Source: Nodosilinea sp. P-1105 (GTDB taxonomy: Bacteria > Cyanobacteriota > Cyanobacteriia > Phormidesmidales > Phormidesmidaceae). Taken from it: DNA of 64,000 nt. Each line of letters starts with the position of its first letter. Position 1 is the stretch's first letter. A model generated the notes under the pieces. That model made no database searches and was not told the origin of the DNA. It saw nothing but the letters and a program-made list of their open reading frames with translations. Position numbers and translations under genes: made by a program. The stretch lies in assembly GCF_012911975.1 (NCBI RefSeq), contig NZ_SMDQ01000020.1:1-64000 (forward strand), read 5' to 3'. Positions 20,619 through 60,354 of the stretch are shown in pieces.

Positions 20619-22721
20619 TTAAGGAACTGCAGATTGGGCCGCGTCAGTGGACCAAATTTTGATCAAATGCTCAGTACCGCCAATGGTCACAATGTCACCA
20701 TTAGGCCGTACCGCAAATCGCCAAATATCGGTGTCAAATCCCTGGAGTTGTTCAACCGGGGTGGCTCGATTCAGATCCCACACGAAGACAGTTTTGTTTT
20801 CATCAGCGCTCCACAGCTTAGGCCCATCCACCCTGACATCGTTAACGTAGCTTTCGTGGCCGGTCAACATTCCCTTCAGGCGGTGGTCGGCCAAATGCCA
20901 AATACCAACGGTTTTATCACTGGACGCACTGATCAACAGCTGATTGTCAGCACTGACTTCTAAGCGGTTAATGAAGGTCAGAGGGGCATGGCCTTCTAGG
21001 GTAGTGGGTTGATCGGGGTCCGCCATCTCCCACACATGTAGATCTTGACCGCCACTAATGAGCAACTGGTTGTCACGGCTAAAGCGGAGGTCATTAATGG
21101 ACCCGTCAGCCTGGAGGGTGTGGACAGGCTGCGGCACCTGGTCTACTAAAGCCGAGATATTGATGTAGCCCGCTGCATCCATCAAGTCCCAGATTTTAAT
21201 TATGCCGAGACCATCAGCGGTGGCCAGAAAGCGACTATTGTGGCTGACCGTGATGGCATTAATGGGTACCCCATGGGCCGCTTGGATTTCCCCTTGAAAC
21301 TCGCCGCTGGGTAAGGCCCAAAAGCGGATTGAGCGATCATCTCCAGCGCTGATCAAGATGTCTTGATCAGGGGTGGTGGCCAAGGTTTTTACCACGTTGG
21401 TATGGCCGCTAAGGGTTCCCAAAGAGGATTTTGTCTGCAAGTCCCATAGGCGGATGGTGGCATCGGCACTGGCGGTGATTAGCGTGTGACCGTCTTTGAG
21501 CAAAATGGCATCGTAAATATCGCCGGTGTGCCCGGACAGGGCAGTGTCGAAGGTGACGGTTTCTGTGGCCAGGTCAGCGGTCTGCTCCAGCCCAGTCGGC
21601 GGGGGGCTAGCCCGACGACTGATGCCATACCAGGCCAGGGGAATGGCCAAAGCAAGGCCAGTCAACCCAGCGAGTACCCAGGGGCGTTGATCCAGCCAGG
21701 GGGGTAAAAATCGGCGGGATGGCTCAGCTAGGGTCTTGGCTTTATGGGGGTCGACGCTGGTTTCTGCCCACGGTTGAGGTGCTTTAGCCGGAGGTAGGGT
21801 GACGTTTTGACCTGAGCGAATGTGGGCCAGCCGGGCCAAGATTTCCCCCGTCGATTGGGGCCGCTGGGCGGCGGCTGGGGCAATTAGGTCGTCGATCAGG
21901 TCAGCTAGGGGTGGGGATATTTGCGGGGCCAGGGGCCGCCAGCGAAAGCCGTTAGTGCGGGGATCATAGATGGTTGGGTCGCTCGGTAACTTAGCGGTAA
22001 TCAGGTAAATCAGCGATCGCCCCATGGCATAGAAGTCAGACTGGGGCACCGCTTGCCCCTGCTCTTGCTCCGGGGGCGTGTAGCCCGCCGAGCTGACAGC
22101 GGTAATATCACTATCCCCGAGTTGAGCCATATAGGTCTGGGTCATCTCACGGGCCGCGCCAAAGTCCACCAGTACCAGCTGCCCTGATGACCGCAGCATA
22201 ATATTATCGGGTTTGATATCCCGGTGAAAATAGTTGTGCTGGTGGATCAAGTGCAGCACATCCGTCAGTTGGGTCATCCACAGCAGAGCCTGTTTTTCGC
22301 TGATAGGGTGATTGCCCTGCTGAATCATCCACTGCTTTAGGTTAGGGCCGTCAATTTTTTCCATCACCAAGCAGTGGCAAGGTTCGGCGCTATCTTGGGG
22401 CCAATAGCGAAAGTAGCCTTCGGCCTCCACTTTAGGTACACCGGGATGGTTGAGTTGGCTCAGCACTTGGGCTTCCCGGCGAAACAGCTCCAGTACTTTG
22501 GGATCACTGTTGTAGCTTTGCTTGAGCACCTTCAAAATTTTGGGCTGGTTGCGCTCATAGGCTTCATAAATCCAGCCGAAACCGCTTTGGCTGCTGATCA
22601 GCCGCATCACCCGATATCGTCCCTGCAACAAGAGTTCGGAACCACAGGCGCAGCAGGTGGCGCTGACACCATTGTCAGGATGGTTGGGTTGGCTGCAGAG
22701 CGGATTAATACAAAGACTCAT
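20619..22721 (-). CDS. Serine/threonine protein kinase with C-terminal WD40 propeller
   Basis: A 700-residue protein. The N-terminus has a cysteine-rich zinc-ribbon-like motif (Cys4, Cys9, Cys23, Cys24, Cys26) typical of cyanobacterial kinases. The kinase domain spans about 33-300, with Lys64 as the VAIK lysine, HRD at 166-168 (FHRDIKPDN), DFG at 186-188, and a PPEQ motif. One transmembrane helix (WVLAGLTGLALAIPLAWYG) lies at about 348-368. Seven WD40-like blades follow (GHTGDIYDA... to ...LIKIWSTD), probably outside the cytoplasm, with the kinase inside. The signal and targets are unknown. Flanking genes give no clue. Confidence 0.95.
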   Translation of the reverse strand: MSLCINPLCSQPNHPDNGVSATCCACGSELLLQGRYRVMRLISSQSGFGWIYEAYERNQPKILKVLKQSYNSDPKVLELFRREAQVLSQLNHPGVPKVEAEGYFRYWPQDSAEPCHCLVMEKIDGPNLKQWMIQQGNHPISEKQALLWMTQLTDVLHLIHQHNYFHRDIKPDNIMLRSSGQLVLVDFGAAREMTQTYMAQLGDSDITAVSSAGYTPPEQEQGQAVPQSDFYAMGRSLIYLITAKLPSDPTIYDPRTNGFRWRPLAPQISPPLADLIDDLIAPAAAQRPQSTGEILARLAHIRSGQNVTLPPAKAPQPWAETSVDPHKAKTLAEPSRRFLPPWLDQRPWVLAGLTGLALAIPLAWYGISRRASPPPTGLEQTADLATETVTFDTALSGHTGDIYDAILLKDGHTLITASADATIRLWDLQTKSSLGTLSGHTNVVKTLATTPDQDILISAGDDRSIRFWALPSGEFQGEIQAAHGVPINAITVSHNSRFLATADGLGIIKIWDLMDAAGYINISALVDQVPQPVHTLQADGSINDLRFSRDNQLLISGGQDLHVWEMADPDQPTTLEGHAPLTFINRLEVSADNQLLISASSDKTVGIWHLADHRLKGMLTGHESYVNDVRVDGPKLWSADENKTVFVWDLNRATPVEQLQGFDTDIWRFAVRPNGDIVTIGGTEHLIKIWSTDAAQSAVP

Positions 22722-59149: not shown

Positions 59150-59328
59150 TAGCCCTGGCGCTGTCAATGGTACTCAGCCCTAACCAAGTCATTACTTGCC
59201 TGTTAAGAGTCCTTGAAGCTGAGGGATAACTACAGAGAACCCTAGGTGATACCCCCTATAGTTTGGCAAGAGTGGATATCGCCTCTGCACGATCCACCCG
59301 TTGCACTATTCACCTGAGGACTACTGGC

Positions 59329-60354
59329 ATGGTGTCACCCATAGCTCCCGATCAGGACTCCCAAACGTTGTCGACTCAGTCCATGGAGGAACCCTCAGCG
59401 GCTAACTGCGTCGTGCCTGTGCCGTCTACGTTGACCGTTGTAGAAGCGGTGGAATTTGAGCAAGTGGTGCAGCAAAAGTGTCAGGCCCAGCCTGCTCCTG
59501 AGACGTTAATCATTGACCTGAGCCAAACCAACTTCATTGATAGTAGTGGCCTAGGGTCCCTCGTTATTGGCTACCGGGCTTGCCAAAGCCGAGGCATTGC
59601 CATGGTGCTGCGGGGAGTCCAGGAGCAGGTCCGGATGGTATTTGAGCTCACTAGCTTAGATCAGCTGTTTGTCTTTGAGCCTACTCCAGCAGGCTCGCCA
59701 GTAGCCCCGAGTCAGTCCGAGATGCGCTTTGTTGGGTTGACCACCCACCCTTCAGTGACCTCAAAGGGCAAGCGGTGCCTCGATATTGTAGGCGCCCTGG
59801 TGGGTTTAACGATTACCAGCGTTCTATCCATTCCGATTGTTTTGGCGATTAAGCTGGAAGATGGTGGCCCGATCCTATTCAAGCAAGAGCGGTGCTCTTG
59901 GATGGGCAAGCGGTTTTACATCTGGAAATTCCGTTCCATGGTCACCAACGCCGAGATTCTAAAAGCCCAGGTGGAAAATCAAGTGGAAGGGCCATTGTTC
60001 AAAAACGAAAATGACCCCCGCATTACCAAAGTGGGGCGGTTGCTCCGTCGGACGAGTTTGGATGAGCTGCCCCAGTTTTGGAATGTCCTCAAAGGCGAGA
60101 TGAGTTTGGTGGGTACTCGCCCCCCCACTCCCGATGAAATTGAGCAGTACAAGGTGCCCGAGTGGCAACGCTTAGACGTGAAGCCAGGGATGACGGGGGA
60201 GTGGCAGGTGAATGGACGCTCGACGGTGAAAAAGTTTGAGGACGTGATTCGGCTCGATTTGGCTTATCAGAAAAACTGGAGCCTGATGTATGACATGCAG
60301 CTAATTGTTAAAACTGTGCTGGTGCTCTTTTCAAAACAGGCTGGAGCCTCTTAA
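59329..60354 (+). CDS. STAS domain-sugar transferase fusion
   Basis: 341 residues from ATG 59329, which has GAGGA about nine bases upstream. Residues 35-120 are a STAS (anti-sigma-antagonist-like) domain with LIIDLSQTNFIDSSGLGSLV; Ser72 in DSSG is at the phosphorylation position of SpoIIAA. Residues 146-341 are a monotopic phosphoglycosyltransferase: KRCLDIVGA, a hydrophobic membrane hairpin at 153-174, KFRSM, the catalytic Asp245-Glu246 (LDELPQFW), SLVGTRPP and KPGMTGEWQVNGRS. Such enzymes move a sugar-1-phosphate onto undecaprenyl phosphate, the first step of exopolysaccharide or O-antigen units. The fusion suggests partner-switch control. Confidence 0.93.
   Translation: MVSPIAPDQDSQTLSTQSMEEPSAANCVVPVPSTLTVVEAVEFEQVVQQKCQAQPAPETLIIDLSQTNFIDSSGLGSLVIGYRACQSRGIAMVLRGVQEQVRMVFELTSLDQLFVFEPTPAGSPVAPSQSEMRFVGLTTHPSVTSKGKRCLDIVGALVGLTITSVLSIPIVLAIKLEDGGPILFKQERCSWMGKRFYIWKFRSMVTNAEILKAQVENQVEGPLFKNENDPRITKVGRLLRRTSLDELPQFWNVLKGEMSLVGTRPPTPDEIEQYKVPEWQRLDVKPGMTGEWQVNGRSTVKKFEDVIRLDLAYQKNWSLMYDMQLIVKTVLVLFSKQAGAS

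Follow-up and report, generated by a model that had tools for sequence, protein, structure and literature searches.

A gene of the cyanobacterium Nodosilinea sp. P-1105 (positions 59,329 to 60,354, + strand, of the window, as we call the whole 64,000-nucleotide stretch that was analysed) encodes a protein of 341 residues in which a STAS domain is joined to a phosphoglycosyl transferase, and in many cyanobacterial relatives the gene for an RsbW-type GHKL kinase lies directly behind this fusion. The domain make-up, an invariant serine in the STAS domain and the kinase linkage suggest that the production of slime or capsules might be switched directly by phosphorylation. On the strength of these comparisons we consider it fairly probable that the fusion is a STAS-switched initiating transferase controlled by an RsbW-type kinase and a PP2C phosphatase.

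The reading frame is open from the ATG at 59,329 through 60,354. Relatives at loci L033-L044 match the protein from its first residue, which supports this ATG as the start, and a possible ribosome binding site (GAGG, 59,316 to 59,319, + strand) can be read 9 bases 5′ of it. The STAS domain occupies residues 25-119 (59,401 to 59,685), where Pfam model PF01740 matches with an E-value of 8.9e-17, and the protein also scores 56.8 bits against the NCBIfam model for the anti-sigma factor antagonist superfamily (TIGR00377; cut-off 53.45). Searches of the PDB with this part likewise returned anti-sigma antagonists. A full-length AlphaFold model built from 14 sequences was of low quality outside the STAS domain (mean pLDDT 44.3 overall, with blocks of 60-89 over residues 21-120) and fold matches were therefore used for the STAS domain only; the best matches of the predicted fold were TM1442, SpoIIAA and RsbV, the last of these taken from the RsbV/RsbW complex. 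Profile, fold and a conserved phosphorylatable serine all place the domain with the RsbV/SpoIIAA type, from whose single-domain organisation it departs in being joined to a transferase. A linker (residues 120-147; 59,686 to 59,769) carries a conserved THPSV.S..KR sequence directly before a predicted membrane helix. The monotopic phosphoglycosyl transferase domain then extends over residues 148-334 (59,770 to 60,330), matching PF02397 (Bac_transf) along positions 1-178 of the 179 in the profile (E 2.9e-66) and, among solved structures, WbaP (3e-42) and the PglC-type transferase 8e37 (1.1e-27). It contains an Asp245-Glu246 dyad (60,061 to 60,066) which, following work on PglC and WbaP, we take to be catalytic. 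The full-length Bac_transf domain and the dyad agree with a small monotopic transferase, whose predicted activity would be the transfer of a sugar phosphate to polyprenyl phosphate. The models for large transferases align to the fusion from residue 132 or later and fall below their NCBIfam cut-offs (TIGR03025, 282.2 bits versus 295.55; TIGR03023, 226.5 versus 410.75), and the fusion is not a whole-protein match to large enzymes such as WbaP, WcaJ or EPS_sugtrans. The original prediction of a STAS domain with a DSSG serine placed before a complete transferase is therefore borne out in its positions and in both Pfam assignments.

The DSSG motif (D71-S72-S73-G74; 59,539 to 59,550) contains the putative phosphosite. 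Ser72 pairs without gaps with residue 58 of SpoIIAA (chain 1th8_B), and Ser58 is the phosphosite of that protein. Across 88 distinct fusion proteins (103 loci minus duplicates, the window's own included) D71, S72, S73, D245 and E246 are each invariant, while G74 is found in 86 and G76 in 84. Seven long STAS proteins of 527-670 residues, presumably SulP transporters, are encoded in the same genome; five could be aligned at the Ser72 site, three of them weakly, where they read DSSA, DGSA, DLAA, DITA and DQGA, so that the site differs in four of the five. The nearest relative of the fusion's STAS domain in its own genome is a stand-alone STAS protein encoded on contig C165 (59 bits). A switch of codon class at S72 was sought among the 88 fusions and none was seen (AGY in all), and the invariance of the serine consequently gains no added support from this source; the DSSG motif may be kept for folding. 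Three fusion genomes with no RsbW-type kinase at E 1e-10 (G014, G076 and G093) have divergent STAS motifs, a pattern consistent with a loss of control, although all three belong to one genus and count as a single event. Divergent STAS motifs are also seen in the fusions at L120, L121, L122 and L123 (family f6, genus g8), and at L120 and L121 a stand-alone STAS gene adjoins the fusion.

The fusion is real and conserved, and is neither a chance juxtaposition nor a frame artefact. A search of 292 cyanobacterial genomes returned full fusions 51-65% identical to that of the window among the matches listed, and our sample comprises at least 74 intact genes for the fusion. They represent 15 families and 66 genomes, not counting the window's own, and the true number could be higher, since matches that cover only the transferase part may hide a STAS domain. 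A scan of named genomes found 16 fusion loci, all cyanobacterial, using patterns that reach close relatives only and so say nothing of absence elsewhere. Two loci hold broken copies: at L124 (G175) the STAS and transferase parts seemingly lie in different frames and are followed by a kinase gene, and at L125 (G215), in the window's own family, the fusion gene has internal stops.

Clustering of neighbouring genes revealed a family of about 140-220 residues encoded directly downstream of many fusions. All four members scanned with Pfam matched HATPase_c_2, the best solved relative of the family profile was RsbW (6m36, 1.2e-11), with SpoIIAB also found, and 21 aligned rows all share the N-box Glu and Asn. 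Of the 74 intact fusion genes, 29 are followed at less than 1 kb by such an RsbW-type GHKL kinase gene in the same orientation; these 29 come from as many of the 66 genomes and from 10 of the 15 families. At L045, in Planktothrix, the fusion likewise has a kinase gene behind it. The open frames of fusion and kinase overlap in 15 of the 29 linked pairs, or in 13 of the 26 pairs listed when counted from the first start codon. As a control, none of 69 STAS-less transferases had such a kinase within 5 kb, judged by the listed coordinates among the matches listed. Linkage is uneven, being seen for 4 of 38 fusion genes in family f7 (the other 34 have no linked kinase downstream), which to judge by its size and variety is probably Nostocaceae, versus 25 of 36 elsewhere; in G213 and G109 a kinase gene lies near the fusion in another orientation. 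A kinase of the linked type is encoded at E 1e-10 in 63 of the 66 fusion genomes, but the 98 genomes of the 292 that have such kinases outnumber those with the fusion, and co-occurrence alone is therefore a weak argument. Profile scores of the linked kinases lie at 164-238 bits for 28 of the 29 and at 130 for one (G135). We rejected score alone as a means of separating linked kinases from others, as unlinked ones reach 202 bits and the profile was built from the linked ones. A comparison of trees gave partial correlations between the kinase and the STAS domain, given the transferase, of 0.49 (30 pairs) and 0.52 (19 pairs), and between the kinase and the transferase, given the STAS domain, of 0.40 and 0.32 respectively; its permutations ignore relatedness and we count the test as weak. 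The linked kinases at L100, L104, L114 and L115 in f7 have a degenerate ATP lid from which the usual GRGL motif has been lost, and they may therefore bind without phosphorylating. These four accompany a second copy of the fusion in that family.

A kinase gene behind the fusion in relatives turns what was a guess into a specific hypothesis about two proteins. The fusion would prime a surface polysaccharide pathway of the Wzx/Wzy type as its initiating phosphoglycosyl transferase and would carry a STAS switch of its own. The STAS domain would be bound by an RsbW-type GHKL kinase, which would phosphorylate Ser72; a receiver-domain PP2C phosphatase would take the phosphate off again, and a stand-alone STAS protein would compete for the kinase. 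Transferase activity would then change as the STAS domain is bound or phosphorylated, most likely through dimerisation of the membrane-bound catalytic domain or access to it, and a signal could in this way control the first committed step with no need for transcription. If SypA and HmpV are a guide, the unphosphorylated fusion should be the active form. This would be likely to amount to partner switching with an enzyme instead of a sigma factor as its output. The idea that an RsbW-like kinase switches the enzyme through the STAS serine, as originally proposed, thus gains comparative support from the linkage, from its absence around the STAS-less transferases listed and from the invariance of Ser72, with phosphorylation itself a step that we infer.

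It is conceivable that the STAS domain is instead a structural arm for dimerisation or scaffolding, which replaces the N-terminal region of the large transferases, and that Ser72 is kept for folding and escapes phosphorylation in the window's lineage. The models of large transferases do extend N-terminally where the STAS domain sits, the codon class of S72 never changes, and in the window's clade (L033-L044) none of the 11 relatives with downstream sequence has a kinase gene there. Linkage to an RsbW-type kinase gene in 10 of 15 families speaks against a purely structural role, as does the divergence of the site in four of the five long STAS proteins that could be aligned there, and we regard this explanation as unlikely. 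Kinase-linked members fall on both deep sides of the fusion tree, which suggests an ancient link between fusion and kinase, with later losses in the window's clade and in the main f7 clade; this reading is tentative because the tree is midpoint rooted and long branches meet.

A tree of 53 kinases resolves three groups, A, B and C. Clade A kinases adjoin the fusion, except for the unlinked L156 and L157; the split has a support of 94/89, just under the tool's star, with the bootstrap not settled. Clade C kinases adjoin genes that we read by eye as petB/petD. At the 12 clade-B loci a receiver-PP2C gene is nearby in nine, and a STAS gene as well in four; the three clade-B kinases of the window's family (G170, G215 and its own) have neither as a neighbour. 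The loci L147, L149, L150, L151 and L152 hold a cyanobacterial module in which a clade-B kinase is paired with a receiver-PP2C, joined in L149-L152 by a stand-alone STAS gene; a relationship of this module to the Hmp system is conceivable. Beside the fusion itself, stand-alone STAS and receiver-PP2C genes are found at L092, L100, L104 and L115 (with Pfam run on those of L104). At some loci these genes and the kinase gene make up a full partner-switching set. Such neighbours would also be expected were the transferase constitutive and its STAS arm a sink, binding the kinase at the membrane so as to control something else (a sigma factor or a stand-alone STAS protein, for example), and clade-B kinases do sit with PP2C and STAS genes away from the transferase. 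That the catalytic domain is intact and that linked kinases follow the fusion, and not the STAS-less transferases listed, both weigh against such a sink, which we think quite improbable.

In the window's own organism the parts of a partner-switching system are present but dispersed. Its genome (6.0 Mb in 195 contigs, 100% complete with 3.7% contamination) has no kinase gene beside the fusion, which is followed by Ycf66_N, metallo-beta-lactamase/rhodanese and DUF72 genes; the search for an RsbW-like partner thus succeeded next to the fusion in relatives and not in the genome for which it was proposed. The linked-kinase profile finds kinases on contigs C119 (137 bits, clade B) and C110 (109 bits, clade C), and both profile search and tree indicate that a clade A kinase is absent. 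Neither the C119 nor the C110 kinase has a STAS, PP2C or phosphoglycosyl transferase gene as a neighbour, and, with the fusion on C109, neither GHKL kinase gene lies beside it. Contig C165 carries a stand-alone STAS gene together with a receiver-PP2C gene, the latter being one of four SpoIIE-type phosphatases in the genome. As PP2C and STAS genes accompany clade-B kinases in other genomes, and one of these kinases (G213) lies 2.6 kb from a fusion, the C119 kinase may serve as a first, weak guess at the partner. The C110 kinase (L019) was considered as an orthologue of the linked kinases and set aside, since the tree puts it in the separate clade C. STAS serines of the RsbV/SpoIIAA type are known to be phosphorylated by GHKL kinases. 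The kinase encoded at 20,619 to 22,721 (- strand), named in the original prediction as a possible regulator, belongs to the Hanks-type Ser/Thr kinases and carries WD40 repeats; its class and its distance of about 37 kb from the fusion make it a most improbable partner, with the shared 64 kb window as the only point in its favour. The N-terminus of this WD40 kinase resembles a 4-Cys prefix, with a score of 23.4 bits that narrowly misses the cut-off of 24.

The joining of a STAS domain to a transferase is already in print. The available text of a 2021 review, citing Wang 2007, describes all4160 of Anabaena PCC 7120 as a glycosyltransferase that bears a STAS domain at its N-terminus (PMC8256260), the same architecture as the window's fusion as far as that description goes. 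A further report, in the part accessible, lists all4160 among the genes needed for heterocyst envelope polysaccharide, with transcripts lowered in sigC and sigE mutants (PMC4390870). No kinase partner of the Anabaena protein is mentioned in the available portions of these two sources, nor a STAS domain in that of the synechan paper (PMC8205485), and among the open-licence papers listed no title or abstract opening dealt with a kinase for a STAS-transferase. The kinase gene partner is thus the new element, as far as that literature shows. The RsbV-RsbW-RsbU and SpoIIAA-SpoIIAB-SpoIIE systems are relatives in fold and sequence and share the DSSG-serine STAS protein, the GHKL kinase and the PP2C phosphatase, but their output is a sigma factor bound by the kinase, whereas here it would be the transferase joined to the STAS domain. 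The nearest published mechanism that we found, on the accessible part of the report, is that of EpsW and EpsZ in M. xanthus, where an initiating phosphoglycosyl transferase is the direct target of a signalling protein in its phosphorylated state (PMC12802240); it involves a separate receiver-domain protein and a large transferase, as opposed to a STAS domain and a small transferase in the same chain. SypA-SypE of Vibrio fischeri (PMC4517449) and HmpV-HmpW-HmpU of Nostoc (PMC8256260; PMC6495340) are described, in the text available, as STAS serine switches tied to polysaccharide or motility and active when unphosphorylated, although SypA and HmpV, unlike the fused domain, are stand-alone proteins with undefined targets.

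How the step that starts Wzx/Wzy polysaccharide synthesis is controlled post-translationally is incompletely understood, according to the accessible part of one of these papers (PMC12802240). If our reading is correct, the covalent STAS-transferase and its adjoining RsbW-type kinase would constitute a direct switch from signal to enzyme for capsules, slime and perhaps heterocyst envelopes, and the fusion may hint at where the targets of stand-alone STAS regulators of polysaccharide should be sought. A bolder version would make the fusion a 'Rosetta stone', in which a cyanobacterial partner-switching circuit, composed of an RsbW-type kinase dedicated to it, a STAS decoy that stands alone and a receiver-PP2C, has the initiating transferase as its output, and the targets of SypA in Vibrio fischeri and HmpV in Nostoc are initiating transferases too; we hold this generalisation to be doubtful.

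The window's enzyme probably starts polysaccharide synthesis, to judge from its domains and from the neighbourhoods of related genes. At L123 flippase, export protein and sulfotransferase genes lie beside the fusion (Pfam), and at L100 flippase and Alg13/Alg14-like genes do so; such polysaccharide-cluster neighbours in some relatives fit a priming step of the Wzx/Wzy pathway. Sulfotransferase and flippase/export genes follow the fusion at both L122 and L123, with Pfam run on L123 only. Finally, locus L097 (8,038 to 9,456, - strand) holds a three-part frame of 473 residues, in which an Alg13-like domain (Glyco_tran_28_C) is joined to the STAS and transferase domains and to which an RsbW-type kinase gene is convergent.
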